The position numbers and the translations under genes were made by a program. From a bacterium (GTDB lineage: Bacteria; UBA9089; CG2-30-40-21; SBAY01): 6,848 nucleotides of DNA. A model generated the notes under the pieces. The model saw only the letters and a list, made by a program, of their open reading frames with translations. It was not told the DNA's origin and did not search any database. Location: assembly GCA_040757115.1 (NCBI GenBank), contig JBFLYA010000198.1, forward strand, positions 1-6,848, in the 5' to 3' direction. Positions 1-6,848 of this stretch are shown here, in pieces. Every line of letters begins with the position of its first letter. Position 1 is the stretch's first letter.

Positions 1-40
1 TACTAATAATTAATTTTTTAATTTTATTTTCAACCCCCAA

Positions 41-56
41 CCCCCAATCGTGGGGG
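41..56. repeat. Short GC-rich hairpin in AT-rich spacer
   Basis: CCCCCA and TGGGGG form a perfect 6-bp stem around an ATCG loop, preceded by a second CCCCCA. It lies downstream of the xseA end and could stop leftward transcription, but neither strand carries a proper T-run after the stem, so a terminator role is weak. The rest of 1-207 shows no gene. Confidence 0.4.
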
Positions 57-128
57 ATTTAATAAGGAATTAAGATTGTGGCATTCAAAATGACCAACAA
101 TATATATTATACGAGGACGATGAAAATA

Positions 129-225
129 GTAGGTAGGAGATAGAAGGTAGGAGGTAAGGAGATAGGCATGAGGAGTGATGTTTTCTTTACTCTCTACTTT
201 CTACTCTCTACTCTCTACTTTTTTT
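129..225. repeat. Low-complexity GTAGGAGATAGG and CTCTCTACT tracts
   Basis: Two strand-biased tracts are visible. A purine-rich GTAGG/GAGATAG tract runs from about 129 to 165. A pyrimidine-rich CTCTCTACT tract runs from about 188 to 225. The second overlaps the 3' end of xseA, so the last codons and the TAG stop of that gene read as part of the repeat. A related TAGAGAG tract lies upstream of recJ at 3524-3574. Confidence 0.7.
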
Positions 226-1419
226 AGTTACCTTAGCTATCATTTCTCCCTGATGAACTCTGATTTTTAAATCATCATCAACATTAACCTGACAGACATC
301 TTTGATTACCTTGCCAGTAAGCAAATTAGAAGTAATGCTATAGCCCAAAGACAAGATGGCAAATGGTGATAAAATCGTAAGTCTATCCGTAAAGTTTTGC
401 AATTTTGCCTGTTTTTGCTCCAGGAGGTGTGAAGTAAGAAGTAAAAGGGTGTTTGTGGCATCATCTACCCTTTGTTGAAATTGCAGGATAGTTTGATATG
501 GATGTCTAAATACCGGGGAGTGCTGGCATCTTTGTAATCTAATTAAAAACTGAGATAATTGAGATTTAACCGTATTTTTGAGGCGAATTAAAAGTGAATT
601 TAATGTCTGGATTAATTCCTCCTTATTTTTAACTACTAACTCTGCCGCCGCAGAAGGCGTAGGGGCACGTAAATCTGCAACAAAATCGGCAATGGTAAAA
701 TCTGTTTCATGACCAACCGCAGAGATAATTGGGATTTGCGAATTAAAGATAGTTCTGGCAAGGTTTTCATCATTAAATGCCCACAAATCTTCAATCGAGC
801 CGCCACCACGACCAATAATAAGAACATCAGGCTTTTTTGCCATTTTATTAAATTCTTTAATCGCCTGACAAATTTCCTCTGGTGCCTCTTTACCCTGAAC
901 CCTGACTGGAAATATGAGTAATTCAATATTATAAAATCGTCGACCGATTATATTTAAAATATCTCTAATTGCCGCACCGGTAAGAGAAGTGACGATGCCA
1001 ACTTGTTGAGGAATAAGTGGTATGTTTTTTTTATGTGCTGGGTCAAATAATCCTTCCTTTTTTAATCGTTGTTTTAATTCTTCTAATGCGACATAAAGGG
1101 AACCTATGCCCGCAGGCTGGAGTTCATCAACCAATATCTGGTATTCACCCCTTTTTTCATAGACACTAATCATTCCTCGCACAATCACTTTCATCCCATC
1201 TTCTACTCTATGTTGTAAAAAAGCAAGCCGACTACGAAACATCACAGCTTTTATCTGGGAATTTGCATCTTTTAAGGTAAAATACATATGACCTGAAGTA
1301 GGAATTGTTAAATTTGAGACCTCACCCTCTACCCAGACATTCGGGAAATTACCTTCAAGGATACTTTTTATGTTTTTAGTCAATTCGCTAATAGATAAAA
1401 TATGTTTTTCCATCATCAT
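208..1419 (-). CDS. xseA: Exodeoxyribonuclease VII large subunit
   Basis: This is the catalytic large subunit of exonuclease VII, which degrades single-stranded DNA to short oligonucleotides from both ends in repair and recombination. The 403-residue product has the family order: an N-terminal OB-fold (about 27-101, WVEGEVSN and GHMYFTLKD), then the nuclease domain with GRGGGSIEDLWAFNDE (203-218) and the SAVGHETDFTIADFVADLRAPTPSAAAE block (233-260). A helical coiled-coil region follows, and then the closing SPFAILSLGYSI segment. It is shorter than the E. coli protein (456 residues) but complete. Three ATG codons open the frame (1411-1419) with no strong Shine-Dalgarno, which fits translational coupling to recJ before element A separated them. 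The C-terminal KKSRE and TAG stop come from a GAGAGTAG tract. No xseB is seen on either side. Confidence 0.96.
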   Translation of the reverse strand: MMMEKHILSISELTKNIKSILEGNFPNVWVEGEVSNLTIPTSGHMYFTLKDANSQIKAVMFRSRLAFLQHRVEDGMKVIVRGMISVYEKRGEYQILVDELQPAGIGSLYVALEELKQRLKKEGLFDPAHKKNIPLIPQQVGIVTSLTGAAIRDILNIIGRRFYNIELLIFPVRVQGKEAPEEICQAIKEFNKMAKKPDVLIIGRGGGSIEDLWAFNDENLARTIFNSQIPIISAVGHETDFTIADFVADLRAPTPSAAAELVVKNKEELIQTLNSLLIRLKNTVKSQLSQFLIRLQRCQHSPVFRHPYQTILQFQQRVDDATNTLLLLTSHLLEQKQAKLQNFTDRLTILSPFAILSLGYSITSNLLTGKVIKDVCQVNVDDDLKIRVHQGEMIAKVTKKSRE

Positions 1420-1447
1420 TTTATTAGACTTTCGATTTCGGATTTTC

Positions 1448-1741
1448 GTAACCGTTCAGGTGGTAATTTACCGCAGAGACGCAGAGGAACAGAGAAGATA
1501 TGGAAATAAATCAGATAACAGAAAAGATTATTGGTGTAGCCATTGAAATACATAGGACCTGCTTGCCGAATGTTCAGCCGGCAAGCCAGATTTGTTAATC
1601 CATCCCTGATTTTCATCAGGGCAAGTTTAATGTTGTTGTACTCAAGAGCTTGCACTGATGAAAATCAGGGATGTTAAGCCTATCGTAAATAAATTTTAAT
1701 TTTCTTCTCTGCGTCTCTGTGTCTCTGCGGTGAACGGTTAC
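1448..1741. mobile_element. Non-autonomous IS66-like element, copy A (MITE carrying GxxExxY remnant)
   Basis: The terminal inverted repeats are GTAACCGTTCA (1448-1458) and TGAACGGTTAC (1731-1741). The pairing continues inward through CCGCAGAGAC and CAGAGAAGA, interrupted by 12 extra bases in the left arm. An 8-bp duplication, GGATTTTC, flanks it at 1440-1447 and 1742-1749. Ends starting GTAA plus 8-bp duplications are the known signature of IS66-family elements; assignment to IS66 is inference because no transposase is present. The interior holds the two ends of a GxxExxY gene, a GCTTGCC/GGCAAGC hairpin (1561-1586), and a 25-bp inverted repeat with 24 matches (1601-1625 / 1649-1673). It sits between recJ and xseA and supplies the present recJ stop codon. 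Confidence 0.88.
1500..1699 (+). pseudogene. GxxExxY protein gene remnant inside element A
   Basis: From ATG 1500 the frame reads MEINQITEKIIGVAIEIHRT, a very typical GxxExxY (TIGR04256-type) N-terminus. It then runs into a hairpin repeat and stops at 1596-1598. Near the right end another frame reads VKPIVNKF followed by TAA (1697-1699), matching the usual GIKRIVNKF-like C-terminus, and an NFNV-like stretch precedes it. About two thirds of the gene between these ends is missing, including the motif that names the family. This is a deletion derivative and cannot make a functional protein. The function of intact GxxExxY proteins is not well established. Confidence 0.75.
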
Positions 1742-3507
1742 GGATTTTCATAGTTGAATTTTATATCTTTAATATTCAACTGCACCGATTGTCTGTCTTG
1801 CCAGGTGTTTATTTGAGGCACATAGGCTAAGTCGATGGAAGTTGAATATTTCAAAGCCGTTATTTTATCGCCCATATCAAATCCAATGGCGTCATAACAT
1901 TGAGCCTTAAGCCCGGAGTATGAAAAAAAGTTACCTTTTTCACTCTGTGCTCCCTGCTCTGTGCTACATACATCTTCTATTACCTTCATTTTAAGATGAT
2001 TATTCCCGACAATCATTGGTTCACCTGAAATTTCTAAAGAACTTGTTGAAAAGACAGGTTTTGGATTACCCAGGCCAAAAGGCGGAAGTAGGCTTTCTAT
2101 TTCATTAATTAATGCCAAATTCACATCTTTTAGATTCACGGGCAAAACATTCAGGGAAGGTTGTAAATCGGTTTTTTTCAAGACGGTTTGGGCATAACCA
2201 TTGATTCTTTCTCTAAATTCATCTATTTTATGCGGTAAAATCGTTAATCCTACTGCTTGCTCATGACCGCCATAACTTTCTAATAAATCTTCGCATTGAA
2301 CCAGGGCATTCAGAAGGTGGAAATTAGAAATACTCCTTCCAGAACCTTTTCCCAGGCCATTTTGAGATGAGATAATTATTGTTGGCCGATAATATTTATC
2401 CACTATTTTTGAGGCAACAATTCCAATTACTCCCTGATGCCAATTATCGTTTGCCAGAACAATGATATTTTTATCATCCTCGAGGACATCCGATTGTATT
2501 GCCTCACGAAAGATAGTCTCCTGGATGTTTTGTCTTTTTGTGTTATGGTCATTGAGTATTCTGACGATTTTTTCTGCCTCTTGAGATGATTGAGTCAGAA
2601 ATAGTTTGATAACTAATTCTGCATCTTCTAATCTACCTATGGCATTAATTCGTGGTGCCAATTTAAAACTAATGTCAGAAGACTCAATTTTCTTCCCTTC
2701 AAGTCCGCAAACCTTAATGAGTGTCTTTAATCCTATATTTTGGGTCATTGTAAGTTGTTTTAAGCCATATTTAACAATAATTCTATTTTCACCAGTTATC
2801 GGCACGACATCGGCTACTGTGCCCAGACAGGCAAATTCTATCAGGCTATTCAAATCAACCGTTGAATATCCTTCTTTCATAAGTCCTTGAATAAGTTTCA
2901 TTACTACACCGACACCGGCTAAACTCTTGTCTGGATATTGACAGGTAGGTTGTTTAGGATTAATAATGGCAAAGGCAAAAGGGAGTTTTCCTTTTACCTC
3001 GTGGTGGTCACAAACAATGACATCCATTCCTAATGAATTGGCGTAATCTATCTCTTCTATCGCCGAAATCCCACAATCTACTGTAATGATAAGTTTTACC
3101 CCCTGAGAGTAAGCAAGTTCTATCCCATTTTTACTGACACCGTAGCCATCAACTAATCTTTTGGGAAGGTAATAGATAAGATTTGAAGTGTGATGATTTA
3201 AAGCCTGTATTAACAAGGTTATTGAAGTGATGCCATCAACATCGTAGTCTCCATAGACTAAGATTTTTTCTTTTTTATTTAGTGCCAGTCTAATCCGCTC
3301 AACTGCTTTATCTAAGTCCTTGAGTAAAAATGGATTATGCAAATCATTTAGATTGGGTCTAATGAATTTTTTAGCATCATCAGGTTCAGCTATCCCTCTA
3401 CTAATGAGTATTTCAGCCGTAATAGGTAAAATCTGAAGTGCCTGGGTTAATTCAGTTACTTCCTTTTGAGTTATGCTCTGATTAATTTTCTTCCAGTTTT
3501 TTTCCAA
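1738..3507 (-). CDS. recJ: Single-stranded-DNA-specific exonuclease RecJ
   Basis: RecJ degrades single-stranded DNA 5'-3' in recombinational and base-excision repair. The 589-residue protein shows the DHH phosphoesterase motifs YGDYDVDGITS (85-95), DCG (144-146) and CDHHE (166-170), then APRINAIGRL (284-293). The DHHA1 part follows, with HQGVIGIVASK (357-367), GSGRS (388-392) and GGHEQAVG (413-420). An OB-fold region begins near PPFGLGNPKPVF (475-486). The start is TTG at 3505-3507, chosen because AAAGGAGA (3513-3520) sits at correct spacing and no upstream alternative is as good. Residues about 511-537 look like an in-frame repeat insertion. The stop codon (1738-1740) lies within the right end of element A; without the element the protein would end four residues later (KSKV). 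It is first in an operon with xseA. Confidence 0.96.
   Translation of the reverse strand: MEKNWKKINQSITQKEVTELTQALQILPITAEILISRGIAEPDDAKKFIRPNLNDLHNPFLLKDLDKAVERIRLALNKKEKILVYGDYDVDGITSITLLIQALNHHTSNLIYYLPKRLVDGYGVSKNGIELAYSQGVKLIITVDCGISAIEEIDYANSLGMDVIVCDHHEVKGKLPFAFAIINPKQPTCQYPDKSLAGVGVVMKLIQGLMKEGYSTVDLNSLIEFACLGTVADVVPITGENRIIVKYGLKQLTMTQNIGLKTLIKVCGLEGKKIESSDISFKLAPRINAIGRLEDAELVIKLFLTQSSQEAEKIVRILNDHNTKRQNIQETIFREAIQSDVLEDDKNIIVLANDNWHQGVIGIVASKIVDKYYRPTIIISSQNGLGKGSGRSISNFHLLNALVQCEDLLESYGGHEQAVGLTILPHKIDEFRERINGYAQTVLKKTDLQPSLNVLPVNLKDVNLALINEIESLLPPFGLGNPKPVFSTSSLEISGEPMIVGNNHLKMKVIEDVCSTEQGAQSEKGNFFSYSGLKAQCYDAIGFDMGDKITALKYSTSIDLAYVPQINTWQDRQSVQLNIKDIKFNYENP
1897..1977 (-). repeat. 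In-frame repeat-derived insertion within recJ
   Basis: This encodes RecJ residues about 511-537, between HLKMKVI and YDAIGFDMGD, which are nearly adjacent in ordinary RecJ proteins. On the coding strand it contains GTAGCACAGAGCAGGGAGC followed by CACAGAG, resembling the CAGAG repeats elsewhere in the window. It also contains the inverted pair AAAAAGGTAACTTTTT. The peptide is low in hydrophobic residues and probably forms a loop on the OB-fold. Insertion is inferred from my knowledge of the family; no alignment was made. Confidence 0.55.
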
Positions 3508-3512
3508 TTTAA

Positions 3513-3520
3513 TCTCCTTT
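3513..3520 (-). promoter_or_regulatory. Shine-Dalgarno of recJ
   Basis: On the minus strand AAAGGAGA precedes the TTG at 3505-3507 by five nucleotides. It is the strongest ribosome-binding site near the frame start and is the reason for choosing the TTG. Confidence 0.8.
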
Positions 3521-3523
3521 TAA

Positions 3524-3574
3524 GTAGTCAGTAGAGAGTAGTCAGTAGTCAGTTCTCTACTCTCTACTCTCTAC
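3524..3574. repeat. TAGAGAG/TAGTCAG repeat with long hairpin
   Basis: GTAGAGAGTAG (3531-3541) is the exact inverse of CTACTCTCTAC (3557-3567, repeated in overlap at 3564-3574), with AGTAGTCAG units between. It would fold in the recJ leader RNA just upstream of the Shine-Dalgarno. Related TAGAGAG units recur over the xseA stop codon at 188-225. Confidence 0.7.
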
Positions 3575-3635
3575 CTATATTTTATCTCCTTTCTTGTAAT
3601 CTTCAACATTATAACCATCTTTTTTCCCTTCTTCC

Positions 3636-3668
3636 TAAGATTATATACCATAATCTTAATTTATGCAA
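3636..3668 (-). promoter_or_regulatory. recJ-xseA promoter with palindrome over the -10
   Basis: On the minus strand TTGCAT (plus 3663-3668) is followed after exactly 17 bp by a perfect TATAAT (plus 3640-3645). The predicted start near 3633 gives a leader of about 125 nt for recJ. A perfect 9-bp inverted repeat, TAAGATTAT/ATAATCTTA (3636-3644 and 3650-3658), covers the -10 and could bind a repressor. The -35 matches only three of six consensus bases. Confidence 0.6.
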
Positions 3669-3791
3669 CTAATTTTTATTCTAACTTTCGCATTTTGAAG
3701 AAACAGAGGTAGGAATATCAAGGGTTTACAGAGTTTTAGACACTACATTACCTGAATATCTTTTCTACCGCAGGTCAGCCAATCTGCAATA

Positions 3792-3842
3792 TTTTCATTG
3801 ACAATGAAAACTTTTCGTATTATACTTTCATCTAAAATGAAA
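3792..3842 (+). promoter_or_regulatory. Near-consensus promoter flanked by two palindromic operators
   Basis: TTGACA (3798-3803), a 17-bp spacer and TATACT (3821-3826) form a strong sigma70-type promoter. The palindrome TTTTCATTG-A-CAATGAAAA (3792-3810) covers the -35. A second palindrome with the same half-site, TTTCAT-N5-ATGAAA (3826-3842), covers the expected start. The centres are 33 bp apart, close to three helical turns, which is the layout expected for a cooperatively repressed promoter. The regulator is unknown. The short ORF at 3857 follows directly. Confidence 0.7.
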
Positions 3843-3856
3843 ATAAAGGGATTCTG

Positions 3857-3979
3857 ATGAATAAAGATGTGCTAAAAGAGATAGTTATAGAACAACAAGA
3901 GCTCATAAAAAGCAAAGAAATAGGGGTAAAAAGAGAGGTCTTAGATAAGATTGGGGGTAACTATTCAGCCACTGATTAA
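3857..3979 (+). CDS. Truncated short ORF, possible N-terminus of an AAA ATPase
   Basis: This 40-residue frame starts at ATG 3857, six bases after AAGGG (3846-3850) and about 24 nt after a strong promoter, so its expression signals look genuine. The first 33 residues (MNKDVLKEIVIEQQELIKSK and on through VKREVLDKIG) are helical and resemble the region before the P-loop in AAA/DUF4143-type ATPases. No P-loop follows. The last residues (GNYSATD) and the stop at 3977 come from element B, which starts at 3957. Joining the flanks of B directly keeps the frame open for 16 more codons (DLKKEAEETTQILKSL, ending before the stop at 4172-4174), giving 49 residues. It is therefore either a broken gene or a small helical protein cut by the element. 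The ATPase link rests on memory of similar N-termini only. Confidence 0.45.
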   Translation: MNKDVLKEIVIEQQELIKSKEIGVKREVLDKIGGNYSATD

Positions 3980-4127
3980 CACGGATTAGCACGGATAAGT
4001 AGCAGAGGACAGAGGAGAGAGGGCAGAGGACAGAGGACAACAGGAGGAAAAATCTTCAGCCTAACTACGGACACGATTTACGAATTTTCAGTGTTTCATC
4101 CGTGTCCATCTGTGGCTGAATAGTTAC
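3957..4127. mobile_element. Non-autonomous element B (GTAACTATTCAG ends, CACGGAT type)
   Basis: A perfect 16-bp terminal inverted repeat, GTAACTATTCAGCCAC (3957-3972) and its inverse (4112-4127), continues inward as GATnnACACGGAT on both sides. The middle holds a GCAGAGGACAGAGG-type tandem tract (about 4002-4040). The tips share the pattern GTAACnnTTCAG with copies A and C, so the same transposase may have moved all three. No 8-bp duplication is visible (GATTGGGG on the left, ACCTAAAG on the right), so the flanks have decayed or recombined. It carries no coding capacity and truncates the short ORF before it. Confidence 0.8.
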
Positions 4128-4184
4128 ACCTAAAGAAAGAGGCAGAAGAGACAACCCAAATCCTTAAAAGCCTGTAATTTTAGT

Positions 4185-4213
4185 TTGACTTTTTTGGGAT
4201 TATTTAGTATAAT
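4185..4213 (+). promoter_or_regulatory. Strong sigma70-type promoter displaced by element C
   Basis: TTGACT (4185-4190), exactly 17 bp, then TATAAT (4208-4213): five of six and six of six consensus bases. Transcription should start near 4220, now inside the left end of element C. Without the element the start would fall at about 4504, just before the GGAGG and ATG of the DUF5678-like gene, so this was most likely its own promoter. Confidence 0.72.
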
Positions 4214-4217
4214 AAAG

Positions 4218-4493
4218 GTAACCGTTCAGGTGGTAATTTACCGCAGAGACGCAGAGGAACAGAGAAGAGATAGAAATAAATCAGATAACAGAAAAGATTA
4301 TTGGTGCAGCCATTGAAATACATAGGACCTGCTTGCCGAATGTTCAGCAGGCAAACCAGATTTGTTAATCAATTTTAATGTTGCGCTGCTCAAGAGATTG
4401 CCCTGATGAAAATCAGGGATGGAATTGTTGCGTATCTTAAATAGATTTTAATTTTTTTCTCTGCGTCTCTGTGTCTCTGCGGTGAACGGTTAC
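4218..4493. mobile_element. Non-autonomous IS66-like element, copy C
   Basis: It has the same GTAACCGTTCA/TGAACGGTTAC ends as copy A. Its left 150 bp differs from A at only about five positions, while its centre lacks the extra hairpin arm present in A (276 versus 294 bp). The flanks are TAATAAAG (4210-4217) and TAATAGAG (4494-4501), an 8-bp duplication with one mismatch. The duplicated site includes part of the -10 box of the promoter at 4185-4213. The element now lies between that promoter and the downstream gene. Confidence 0.87.
4270..4451 (+). pseudogene. GxxExxY protein gene remnant inside element C
   Basis: This is the same deletion derivative as in copy A. The N-terminal part reads EINQITEKIIGAAIEIHRT, but the start codon is now ATA (4270-4272). 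The right part retains NFNVALLKRL, and after a frame change a degraded GI...NRF-like C-terminus up to TAA (4449-4451). The alanine in IIGAAIE matches the usual family sequence better than the valine in copy A, so C keeps an older state there while A keeps the ATG. Confidence 0.72.
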
Positions 4494-4522
4494 TAATAGA
4501 GATTATGGAGGATGTAAAAAAA

Positions 4523-4963
4523 ATGGAAGTAAGTAAATCACGCATTAAAGATTTAACGAAGTTTCTACCTATTACTTCTGGCCAAAATATATCCATCTAT
4601 ATTGTAAGTCAAACATTCACAAACAACTTCCCTCCACCTAAGAATCCATTCTGGGTGCCATCTCAAGAAGAAGACTCCTCTATTAAACCCCTTGATATTG
4701 ACCCGAAGTTTTTCCTTGAAGAGAAAGCATTTTACAAGATGAAGGATGAACTTTACGAAAAATATCCTGAAAAATGGGTAGCCATCTCTGGTGGTAAAGT
4801 AATTGATGTAGATGAAGATGATGGCAGATTGGCAGAAAGGGTATATAAAAAGCCTGGTCTAACAATTTATATCAATAAACTGACCAAAGAGTCCAGGCTC
4901 GCATTCCTATCATCTCCTATAGGGCTTCACGAAATTCCCTCACCCAAATATAGAAAAGATTAG
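4523..4963 (+). CDS. DUF5678-like small protein
   Basis: The frame is open from ATG 4505 (152 residues), but I prefer ATG 4523 (146 residues). GGAGG (4507-4511) precedes the second ATG, and the reconstructed pre-insertion transcript would begin at about 4504, leaving no leader for the first ATG. The N-terminal half has no recognised fold and is proline-rich (NFPPPKNPFWVP). The C-terminal half (about 72-126 in the long numbering) reads FYKMKDELYEKYPEKWVAIS, then GGKVIDVDEDDGRLAERVYK. This is the pattern of DUF5678, a small domain of unknown function: an acidic helix, a KWVAIxxGKV strand pair and a second helix. There is no signal peptide or membrane segment. It is now separated from its likely promoter by element C and is followed by a CCCCCTT/AAGGGGG hairpin. 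Confidence 0.72.
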   Translation: MEVSKSRIKDLTKFLPITSGQNISIYIVSQTFTNNFPPPKNPFWVPSQEEDSSIKPLDIDPKFFLEEKAFYKMKDELYEKYPEKWVAISGGKVIDVDEDDGRLAERVYKKPGLTIYINKLTKESRLAFLSSPIGLHEIPSPKYRKD

Positions 4964-4981
4964 AGGTGGAGGACAGATATT

Positions 4982-5033
4982 CCCCCTTAATAAAGGGGGT
5001 TAGGGGGTTGTAAGTATATAAAGGGGGTTAGAC
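4982..5033 (+). repeat. CCCCCTTAATAAAGGGGG hairpin and GGGGGTTAG direct repeats
   Basis: CCCCCTT (4982-4988) pairs with AAGGGGG (4993-4999) around AATA, 18 bp after the stop of the preceding gene. AAAGGGGGTTAG then recurs at 4992-5003 and 5021-5031. The hairpin could act as a weak terminator, though no T-run follows. The second copy ends in GTTAGAC (5027-5033), which is identical to the R' box of the attC site at 5345-5351. Confidence 0.6.
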
Positions 5034-5046
5034 TAATAAAAATAAT

Positions 5047-5118
5047 CACACAGAGACACAAAGTCACAAAGGAATTGAATAAAACAATAAACCTTTGTGT
5101 TCTTTGTGGCTTTGTGTG
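5047..5118. repeat. CACAAAG-type palindromic repeat
   Basis: The arms 5047-5072 (CACACAGAGACACAAAG and onward) and 5092-5118 (CCTTTGTGTTCTTTGTGG and onward) are inverse copies with a few mismatches around a 19-bp AT-rich loop. The arms are made of CACAAAG/CACAGAG units, as in other interspersed repeats here. There is no coding potential. Between this and the attC site (5119-5219) I see no convincing gene. Confidence 0.65.
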
Positions 5119-5219
5119 AGAAAATAAAAAGGAGATATTTTAGGGTCAACCGTGAATGTGGAATGCACAATAATTCGGTGAGGCAGAGGAAAAGGAAAAG
5201 ACAGCGAATCAAAGCTTTT

Positions 5220-5351
5220 GTCTAACCCTGCGTTGCAGTTGACGGCGGGGGACTGTGCCGTGGTCAGAGTTTTGTGGTCTCTCAAAGTTTTATCTTGCTA
5301 TCAAACTTTTGTGGTAATCCTCCCCGCCGCACCTGAACTTTATCGTTAGAC
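5220..5351 (+). other. Integron attC recombination site
   Basis: The outer boxes are GTCTAAC (5220-5226, fitting RYYYAAC) and GTTAGAC (5345-5351, fitting GTTRRRY), exact inverses of each other. Spacers of 5 bp (5227-5231) and 6 bp (5339-5344) lead to an inner stem. The left arm is GTTGCAGTTGACGGCGGGG (5232-5250); the right arm (5322-5338) is the inverse with two bases missing. The left arm thus has two unpaired bases, G5235 and A5242, six nucleotides apart. Canonical attC sites have extrahelical bases at this place and spacing, and these set their orientation. The 132-bp length lies inside the known attC range. No integron integrase is in the window. The site is oriented with R' toward the ATPase gene. 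Confidence 0.85.
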
Positions 5352-5369
5352 CTTAAAAGTAGCCAGAAT

Positions 5370-6398
5370 GTGATCATCTATTCCCCAAGACGCTTTGGCA
5401 AAACCTCACTTATCTTAGAGACTATCCATCGCCTAAAAAAAGAGGGTTTTCCCTGCATCTATATTGATGTCTCTACCATTACCTCAAAGAGGGATTTTGC
5501 ACAAAGGCTGGCATCTACTATCGCTAAAGAAACCTCAAAGGGAATTTCTGAAGCAGTAAGAAAGATAAAAGAGAACATACCTAAAATTACACCAAAGATT
5601 GTTTTAAAAGGTGAAGGGGATATGGAGTTTTTCGTAGAATTTGAAGACAAAAAATCGGATATGGATAAACTCCTTTTAAATTTATATGACCTTCCCCAGA
5701 GAATAGCGGAAAAGAAGAAAAAGAAGCTTATCGTTGCCTTCGATGAATTTCAGGAGATACAAAGACTTGATGGTGAAGATATTGAGAAAAATTTGAGGGC
5801 AAAGATTCAACATCACAGTGATGTCGCCTATGTATTTATGGGAAGCAAACGCCATCTTATGGAGCGGATATTTAACGATAAAACAAGGGCTTTTTATAAG
5901 ATTGGAAAACATCTTAGCTTAAGAATGATTCCCAAAGAAGAATTTAGTGCCTTTATCATAAAAAGGCTTAAAGAGACAGGAATAAGAATAGAATTACCAT
6001 TGGTTGATGAGATTCTTAAAATTACTGCGTGCCATCCTTATTATACCCAAATGCTTATGCATGAGATATGGAATGAATCATATCCTGAGAGGGTAATTAC
6101 TGCTGAATCAGTCAAAAGGGGGATGGAACAAGTCTTTTTAAATCAGGAATCCCTTTTTGTTAATTTATGGGATTCGGTGTCCTCAAAACAAAGAAACCTT
6201 TTGGTTGCTTTATCCGCTGATGAGGAACTATCTCTTTGTGCCCAGTCAACGATTATAAAATACGAGCTGGGTTCAGCGGCTACGGTGAATAAATCTTTAA
6301 AGGCATTAGAGAATAAAGAGCTGGTTGAGCAAAAAGGAGAAAGATATAGGATACAAGATATATTCTTTAAAGAATGGGTTAAGGCTCGGGGAAGTTAA
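5370..6398 (+). CDS. AAA+ ATPase (archaeal-type ATPase family), N-terminus truncated
   Basis: The product has 342 residues from a GTG start. It shows a Walker A loop of the SPRRFGKTS type (5-13, K11 and T12), Walker B IVAFDEFQEI (121-130, D125 E126), a sensor-like AYVFMGSKRH (153-162), CHPYYTQML (221-229), and a C-terminal winged-helix region (about 272-325). This matches the archaeal-type ATPase family of COG1672/AAA_14-like P-loop proteins, whose cellular role is generally unknown. Members normally start with about 25 more residues, including an NRExEL-type box. Here the frame can be read upstream only as LKSSQN from codon 5352, directly after the attC R' box, and then meets foreign sequence and a stop at 5334. 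No good Shine-Dalgarno precedes the GTG. The catalytic motifs are intact, so a shortened protein is possible, but a 5'-truncated gene is equally likely. Confidence 0.8.
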   Translation: MIIYSPRRFGKTSLILETIHRLKKEGFPCIYIDVSTITSKRDFAQRLASTIAKETSKGISEAVRKIKENIPKITPKIVLKGEGDMEFFVEFEDKKSDMDKLLLNLYDLPQRIAEKKKKKLIVAFDEFQEIQRLDGEDIEKNLRAKIQHHSDVAYVFMGSKRHLMERIFNDKTRAFYKIGKHLSLRMIPKEEFSAFIIKRLKETGIRIELPLVDEILKITACHPYYTQMLMHEIWNESYPERVITAESVKRGMEQVFLNQESLFVNLWDSVSSKQRNLLVALSADEELSLCAQSTIIKYELGSAATVNKSLKALENKELVEQKGERYRIQDIFFKEWVKARGS

Positions 6399-6409
6399 TC
6401 AGCAGGGTC

Positions 6410-6470
6410 AAGGCTAAAGGCTCAAGGCTCTCTGAAAAAGCATGTTTCATCCCTTGAGGCCTAAATCCTT
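6410..6470. repeat. AAGGCTAAAGGCTCAAGG inverted repeat
   Basis: The left arm 6410-6427 pairs with the right arm 6452-6470 (CCTTGAGGCCTAAATCCTT) with few mismatches around a 24-nt loop. It begins 11 bp after the ATPase stop, so it could protect or end that transcript, but no T-run follows the stem. AGGCT units also recur directly at 6411 and 6418. Confidence 0.6.
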
Positions 6471-6479
6471 GAGCAAATT

Positions 6480-6614
6480 ATGGAACAGCTAAACACATAC
6501 GAAAAAAGTATAGAGTTCCCCGTAAGGGGAAGTATTTTAGAATGCCCTAAGTGCAAGAGAATGTCAGATGAGGTTTTATTGATAGATATTGGTGGACACA
6601 ACGAAGTTTACTGA
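6480..6614 (+). CDS. Small CxxC (zinc-ribbon-like) ORF, probably truncated
   Basis: This 44-residue frame runs MEQLNTYEKSIEFPVRGSIL, then ECPKCKRMSDEVLLIDIGGHNEVY. One CPKC knuckle at residues 22-25 is what half of a zinc ribbon looks like; the second CxxC pair is missing. The stop falls 11 bp before the left end of element D (6625), so the gene may have lost its 3' half around that insertion. There is no clear Shine-Dalgarno or promoter. I do not recognise a family. Confidence 0.4.
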   Translation: MEQLNTYEKSIEFPVRGSILECPKCKRMSDEVLLIDIGGHNEVY

Positions 6615-6624
6615 GTAGATTATT

Positions 6625-6848
6625 GTAACCGTTCAGGATATAGCCACAGAGTCACAGAGAACACAGAGGGAATATATAACCACGAATGAACACGAATAAT
6701 AAAAAGATTTGTAGTGCGAGACTTTAGCCTCGCTTCTGGCAAGCAGGAAAGCGAACCTAATTGCTTTTTCATAAATAGGTTCCTCTTTTGGGGAGAGCGA
6801 TAGCAAGAAGAACTTTAATGTAAATATCAAAATGCAAATATCAAAATT
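6625..6848. mobile_element. Left end of element D (GTAACCGTTCAGG end), composite repeat, runs off the window
   Basis: GTAACCGTTCAGG (6625-6637) is identical to the tip of copies A and C, followed by CACAGAGTCACAGAG and CACAGAGG units as in their arms. The interior differs: CCACGAATGAACACGAAT (6680-6697), a GCGAG/CTCGC hairpin (6716-6733), then an AACCTA/TAGGTT stem. The right end is outside the window, so the extent is a minimum and the later part may belong to separate repeats. I see no gene in this stretch. Confidence 0.6.
6822..6847. repeat. AAATATCAAAAT direct repeat
   Basis: AAATATCAAAAT occurs at 6822-6833 and again at 6836-6847, a 14-bp period, and the array probably continues beyond the window edge. 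Confidence 0.7.

Follow-up and report, generated by a model that had tools for sequence, protein, structure and literature searches.

We describe here two short elements, copies A and C, in a 6,848-nucleotide stretch of bacterial DNA (contig JBFLYA010000198.1 of assembly GCA_040757115.1, positions 1 to 6,848; GTDB lineage Bacteria; UBA9089; CG2-30-40-21; SBAY01), which was analysed whole and is called the window. We conclude, with a probability of about 0.86, that both are non-autonomous transposable elements of the IS66 type, that is, miniature inverted-repeat transposable elements (MITEs) in which IS66-type ends enclose a gutted GxxExxY gene. This organisation appears to have two layers. The outer layer, consisting of IS66-ended non-autonomous elements in this phylum, is well supported. 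The inner layer is a GxxExxY cassette that carries its own inverted short-repeat arms and, in most of the genomes examined, has no IS66 ends; the nuclease encoded by the gene may act on these arms. The parts of the two copies are the following.

1440 to 1447: left target-site duplication of copy A, GGATTTTC, identical to 1742 to 1749
1448 to 1741, + strand: copy A, probable IS66-ended MITE with a gutted GxxExxY gene, 294 bp, near-perfect hairpin fold
1448 to 1458, + strand: IS66-type terminal repeat of copy A, GTAACCGTTCA
1467 to 1498, + strand: 5′ CRCRRAG arm of copy A, TTTACCGCAGAGACGCAGAGGAACAGAGAAGA
1500 to 1559, + strand: leftover first 20 GxxExxY codons of copy A, MEINQITEKIIGVAIEIHRT, by alignment to full-length L005 and L003
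1703 to 1734, − strand: 3′ CRCRRAG arm of copy A, inverted
1731 to 1741, − strand: IS66-type terminal repeat of copy A, reading TGAACGGTTAC on the + strand; its TAA doubles as the recJ stop codon
1742 to 1749: right target-site duplication of copy A, GGATTTTC, identical to 1440 to 1447
4210 to 4217: duplication left of copy C, taataaag, matching the right side at 7 of 8 positions
4218 to 4493, + strand: copy C, same probable MITE family as copy A, 276 bp, mutated start codon
4494 to 4501: duplication right of copy C, taatagag, matching the left side at 7 of 8 positions

Gutted GxxExxY elements and their IS66-type ends

Both copies start with GTAACCGTTCA and end with TGAACGGTTAC, and they are 93% identical over their shared columns. 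Alignment to the full-length relative L005 (472 bp) revealed that they are derivatives of a GxxExxY gene with the same internal deletion, as the original prediction, made from the window's letters, had proposed. Each retains the N-terminal 20 codons, MEINQITEKIIG(V/A)AIEIHRT, and a C-terminal remnant of about 9-17 codons, from the (LL)INFNV region and the terminus, the central part being deleted. Copy C has lost its start codon (ATG to ATA), and in the alignment a small palindrome within it is about 24 bp shorter. Copy A is located precisely between the DNA-repair genes recJ and xseA, and the computed fold of its RNA has an energy of -126.8 kcal/mol (z -12.6). An 8-bp duplication had been expected at each copy; it is exact at copy A and imperfect at copy C.

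The family is abundant in the 4.3-Mb genome. The 11-bp end GTAACCGTTCA occurs there 553 times (260+293), whereas the reversed 11-mer, taken as a control, occurs 8 times (6+2). Counts in four further genomes of the phylum are 559, 485, 127 and 84, and outside the phylum they are near background. The gutted form, 245-296 bp in size, matches no fewer than 40 places in the genome, 40 being the number of candidates that were scored. Being short, multicopy and devoid of a transposase gene, the elements fit an IS66-derived MITE. An 8-bp duplication with at most one mismatch flanks 13 of the 24 two-ended gutted copies. We also paired adjacent inward-facing ends in about 360 kb of sampled regions together with fetched loci, which gave 42 GTAACCG-type and 28 GTAACTA-type elements. 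Exact duplications of 8 bp were present at 13 of the former and 7 of the latter, compared with about 0.3 in a control with re-paired flanks, and other lengths were represented by one 7-bp case per type, with none at 4-6 or 9-12 bp. The predominance of a single duplication length backs the claim as far as this genome is concerned.

GTAA-starting ends and 8-bp duplications have been described for the IS66 family (PMC11946415), some of whose members carry passenger genes and GTAACCG ends (PMC12888890). The predicted likeness to IS66 was supported by two transposase elements that have the 11-bp GTAACCGTTCA/TGAACGGTTAC ends in common with the MITE family. One of them (L031), in the same genome, is a decayed, near-complete IS66 transposase (PF03050, E 1.9e-39; two in-frame stops; 1563 bp) bounded by GTAACCGTTCAGGTA and TACCTGAACGGTTAC. 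The other (L087), in the order-mate genome G004, encodes a homologous, intact transposase with an open frame of 476 codons in about 1.5 kb, and is bounded by GTAACCGTTCACA and TGTGAACGGTTAC. Judged by this size of about 1.5 kb, both elements probably lack the accessory genes tnpA and tnpB.

We observed 65 PF13366 matches in the genome, about a dozen of them intact and full-length. The full-length genes at L002, L008 and L011 score 128-162 bits against the GxxExxY hidden Markov model (TIGR04256 / PF13366; cut-off 35), whereas copies A and C hold fragments only. Full-length genes within these ends and between exact 8-bp duplications, the form from which the gutted copies had been predicted to derive, were found at L011 (496 bp, TTATACAC), L015 (511 bp, GATAGGTG, one in-frame stop), L017 (704 bp, AATTTTTT, with a nested insert) and, in the 98%-identical genome G001, L292 (563 bp, AAATGGGA). 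Six further GxxExxY loci (L001, L002, L003, L005, L013 and L286) have IS66-type ends without a duplication, and the L013 cassette is also present in G001. The genes inside these ends belong to different subfamilies and have different arms (CGCAGAG; GGAGAAATGG; GACAGGAT), making up at least two unrelated cassette types. Thus, GxxExxY genes appear to have been enclosed by IS66-type ends repeatedly.

Empty sites were found for two copies. A 255-bp gutted copy (C2:3060-3314) is missing from G001, where contig C258 carries a clean, uninterrupted site with a single GGAAAAGG, and the recJ-xseA junction is insert-free in the sister-genus genome G003, giving an empty site for copy A. In G001 itself, copy A's recJ side and its xseA side are found on separate contigs (L194 and L197), each joined via a copy of the element to another partner, and these exchanged flanks suggest rearrangement through MITE copies.

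Our model suggests that a GxxExxY gene, together with the inverted short-repeat arms belonging to it, was mobilised as a cassette in trans by a transposase of the IS66 family. The middle of the gene would then have been lost from one such passenger element, and the resulting hairpin form of 245-296 bp would have been amplified. Several observations weigh against this model. Matching duplications are absent from about half of the gutted copies and from about two thirds of all end pairs; L003 and L005 (472 bp), the nearest full-length relatives of A and C, contain one or two stops and have no duplications; the resident IS66 copy L031 is decayed; and no matching 8-bp duplication was found at L031 (TTATTTTT/AAAAACTT) or L087 (GATTTTGA/GGAAAATT), each represented by one copy. 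Furthermore, metagenome contigs break or may misjoin at repeats, which makes recombination and misassembly in G001 indistinguishable. Most members of the MITE family have also lost their duplication. For copies that have no matching duplication, homologous recombination between copies, as suggested by the swapped flanks in G001, is the simplest explanation.

One could alternatively take the GxxExxY nuclease for the transposase of the GTAACCGTTCA elements, with the gutted copies as its MITEs and the likeness to IS66 as a coincidence. The gene is indeed predicted to be catalytically intact (D66, E76, K78, Q90), and it resides inside such elements. However, in two genomes it is IS66 transposases that lie between these ends, some elements with ends of this kind contain no recognised GxxExxY relic (for example window copy B, L036:11525 and L083:1921), and GxxExxY genes of other phyla lack such ends; we therefore consider this very improbable. 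Draft contigs with repeats at their ends might also raise the suspicion that copies A and C reflect a segmental duplication or an assembly artefact. This is hardly credible, since the two copies have different flanks and 8-bp duplications and dozens of element loci are present in two independent assemblies, and the empty sites in G001 and G003 refute it.

A GxxExxY cassette with its own arms

The original prediction had gone further, seeing in the IS66-like unit the explanation for the wide, patchy spread of the GxxExxY family. This extension failed. In a comparison set of 80 GxxExxY loci, drawn from many phyla and including two archaeal ones, GTAA..TTAC ends with an 8-bp duplication were found at none of the loci of other phyla, and full-length genes without these ends exist in the present genome as well: L006, L008 and L012 have arms only, L007, L009 and L010 lie inside elements with CGACCTGTGAAATAGG ends that form another dispersed family of this genome, and L004 has ACCTGTGCAATCA ends. 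In the part of the blocks searched in G001, the cassettes with other ends (L004, L007, L008, L010, L012) were matched by a single flank or by repeated flanks, and no empty site emerged for them. We hypothesize that the IS66 ends account for the local spread, in this phylum only, and that outside it the gene travels accompanied by its own arms but not by IS66 ends.

Terminal inverted repeats of any kind with a duplication outside the arms were present at 2 of the 80 loci (L117 and L119), compared with 2 of 276 shifted controls. At these two Bacteroidota loci GxxExxY lies inside elements of about 0.7 kb whose ends are GCTACTCTTT and which are flanked by 8-bp duplications; these apparently represent a further transposon family that took in the gene.

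The arms, in contrast to the ends, are widespread. At a score threshold of 26 or more, the flanks form inverted repeats at 57 of 78 GxxExxY loci, versus 2 of 275 shifted positions and 7 of 231 neighbouring open reading frames (ORFs), and one of these seven arm-flanked ORFs is itself a GxxExxY gene. The CAGAGG-type repeats that had been associated with GxxExxY genes at the outset thus proved to be a general feature. Shifted positions and neighbouring ORFs served as the controls, a cross-locus CRCRRAG control being inflated by the shared motif. Each arm is made up of 2-4 near-tandem units, mostly CRCRRAG, with a spacing of 8-10 bp, and is often preceded by TTCACC or AACC. CRCRRAG occurs on both sides at 51 of 80 loci (1 of 275 shifted positions), and agreement in unit variant between the two arms of a locus is 0.63, compared with 0.19 after permutation. 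In a second set, from genomes picked by motif counts, arms were present at 18 of 19 loci, some of them built of related units, among them CACGGATNN, CGCAGATTA, CACGAATTT and CGCCGATGAA.

The abundance of the motif tracks the gene. The 290 genomes compared are not independent of one another in phylogeny, although most families contribute only one or two. Among them, high counts of the pattern ACCRCRRAGNCRCRRAG are almost confined to genomes with a GxxExxY gene; outside the phylum, 23 of the 24 genomes with at least 10 motif hits carry GxxExxY (p 1.4e-15). The comparison family TIGR02436 was no predictor of the motif (0 of 23 genomes with TIGR02436 but without GxxExxY). In G065, a single 5.0-Mb contig, there are 133 motif hits, with one GxxExxY gene between two inverted copies and dispersed single copies elsewhere, and in seven genomes the dispersed units resemble the arms of the resident gene (permutation p about 0.03). 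Viral contigs yielded only two distant GxxExxY loci.

The protein is predicted to be a minimal PD-(D/E)XK nuclease with D66, E76 and K78 and a QxxxY motif, and was assigned to the domain PDDEXK_3. A model of the L115 protein built with 44 sequences reached a predicted local distance difference test (pLDDT) score of 96.5; in these sequences D66, K78 and Q90 are invariant and E76 is nearly so, and D..ExK with QxxxY is present in 72 of 75 sequences. A sequence search of the PDB with GxxExxY gave no match. By structure, the closest solved protein is SSO0001 (Z 9.6; root-mean-square deviation 3.0, 99 aligned; Foldseek E 0.0025), which is a Cas4.

These results raise the question of whether gene and arms form a mobile cassette in their own right, as a layer complementary to the IS66-type MITEs. 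The nuclease would recognise the arm units and spread gene-less arms in trans, much as in RAYT/REPIN systems, and the IS66 ends would merely have enclosed the cassette here. The frequency of inverted arms, the motif on both sides with its shared variants, the motif-rich genomes that hold the gene, the many hits around one gene in G065, the dispersed units that look like resident arms and the Cas4-like fold all argue for such a layer. However, apart from the two Bacteroidota loci, the 80 loci revealed no conventional terminal inverted repeat with a duplication around the arms, no empty site was obtained for a cassette without IS66 ends, and of the 63 genomes outside the phylum that carry the gene, 40 show fewer than 10 CRCRRAG hits, though other arm motifs exist. 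Moreover, the unrelated TIGR02436 family is armed too: 25 of 30 loci of these four-helix-bundle genes (L256-L285) have inverted short-repeat arms, with a period of 7 and a locus-specific motif unlike CRCRRAG, so a process independent of the gene may give rise to arms. On balance we hold an autonomous cassette of this kind to be possible, at somewhat less than even odds. The cassette might instead be a passive hitchhiker, its arms serving as terminators, stabilisers or stems like those of intervening sequences (IVS), and its gene spreading via any carrier transposon or by recombination. Varied transposon ends enclose it (GTAACCGTTCA, GTAACTATTCA, CGACCTGTG.., GCTACTCTTT), and the strong folding of copy A agrees with this; yet a unit motif, spacing and variant common to both arms and found across phyla would be left unexplained, as would the co-occurrence of gene and motif, and we see hitchhiking as a real possibility that falls a little short of probable. 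More tentatively, and by analogy, GxxExxY and its CRCRRAG-type arms could constitute a new class of REPtron-like selfish system, in which a minimal Cas4/RecB-like nuclease would recognise its own short-tandem-repeat arms and scatter copies of them without the gene, in trans, over many bacterial phyla and some archaeal ones, and in which unrelated transposon ends, those of IS66 among them, would have enclosed the cassette time and again; we rate this as less likely than not. The inverted arms may be the reason why this orphan gene has travelled so widely.

Relation to known systems

The elements resemble IS66 and its passenger-carrying forms (tIS66; for example ISPa75-fosZ, PMC12888890) in their GTAA-starting ends (GTAACCGTCCGGGCA is known in the IS66 family), in their 8-bp duplications, in the passenger gene between the ends and in that a DDE_Tnp_IS66 transposase of this lineage is bounded by identical ends. 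They differ in having no transposase, in a passenger that is a short and mostly gutted GxxExxY cassette with its own inverted arms, and in their very high copy number. With MITEs they share the small size, the lack of a transposase, the ends of an autonomous partner, target duplications, a hairpin and many copies, but they derive from a deleted passenger gene rather than a deleted transposase gene.

The cassette recalls RAYT/REPIN systems (PMC3116915, PMC2817692), where one gene likewise lies between inverted short repeats, many gene-less repeat copies exist as singles or hairpin pairs, and gene and repeat co-occur. In contrast, GxxExxY is a predicted Cas4-like PD-(D/E)XK nuclease (PDDEXK_3) and not a Y1 HUH (TnpA_REP) transposase, and its units are short near-tandem CRCRRAG-type motifs. 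Since the protein has another fold, the cassette is not a RAYT/REPIN member and the likeness is one of organisation only. The 23S rRNA IVS and S23p four-helix-bundle elements (PMC4990558; TIGR02436) also place a small orphan gene inside inverted arms and reach many copies in uncultured bacteria, but with the period-7, locus-specific arms described above. In the literature consulted the repeat motif is not described and GxxExxY/PF13366 is only incidentally mentioned; papers on short tandemly repeated repetitive (STRR) sequences and on IVS cover neighbouring phenomena.

GxxExxY thereby gains a concrete anatomy: rather than being a lone gene, it sits in the middle of a cassette whose inverted short-repeat arms are conserved. 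Its function can now be put to the test by asking whether the nuclease binds its own arms and cuts them. The cassette also suggests itself as a candidate source for the dispersed CGCAGAG/CACAGAG-type repeats of uncultured bacteria. In this phylum the IS66 ends appear to have multiplied a passenger cassette into hundreds of copies, and genome rearrangement by recombination between them is probable.

Other features of the window

Two further elements related to copies A and C are present.

3957 to 4127, + strand: related element with GTAACTATTCA ends and CACGGAT-type arms, without a duplication
6625 to 6848, + strand: left end of a further GTAACCGTTCA element, which runs past the window end

An Rfam search of the window gave no match. 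Gene-less hairpins with period-7 units (AGTAGTC / CTACTCT) at 127-225 and 3522-3577 resemble the arms of TIGR02436 genes. At 5049-5116, a gene-less CRCRRAG hairpin (CACAGAGACACAAAGTCACAAAGG .. CTTTGTGTTCTTTGTGGCTTTGTGTG) without IS66 ends adjoins another dispersed repeat, and an AAA/STAND-like ATPase (PF01637) at 5370-6398 adjoins the elements.

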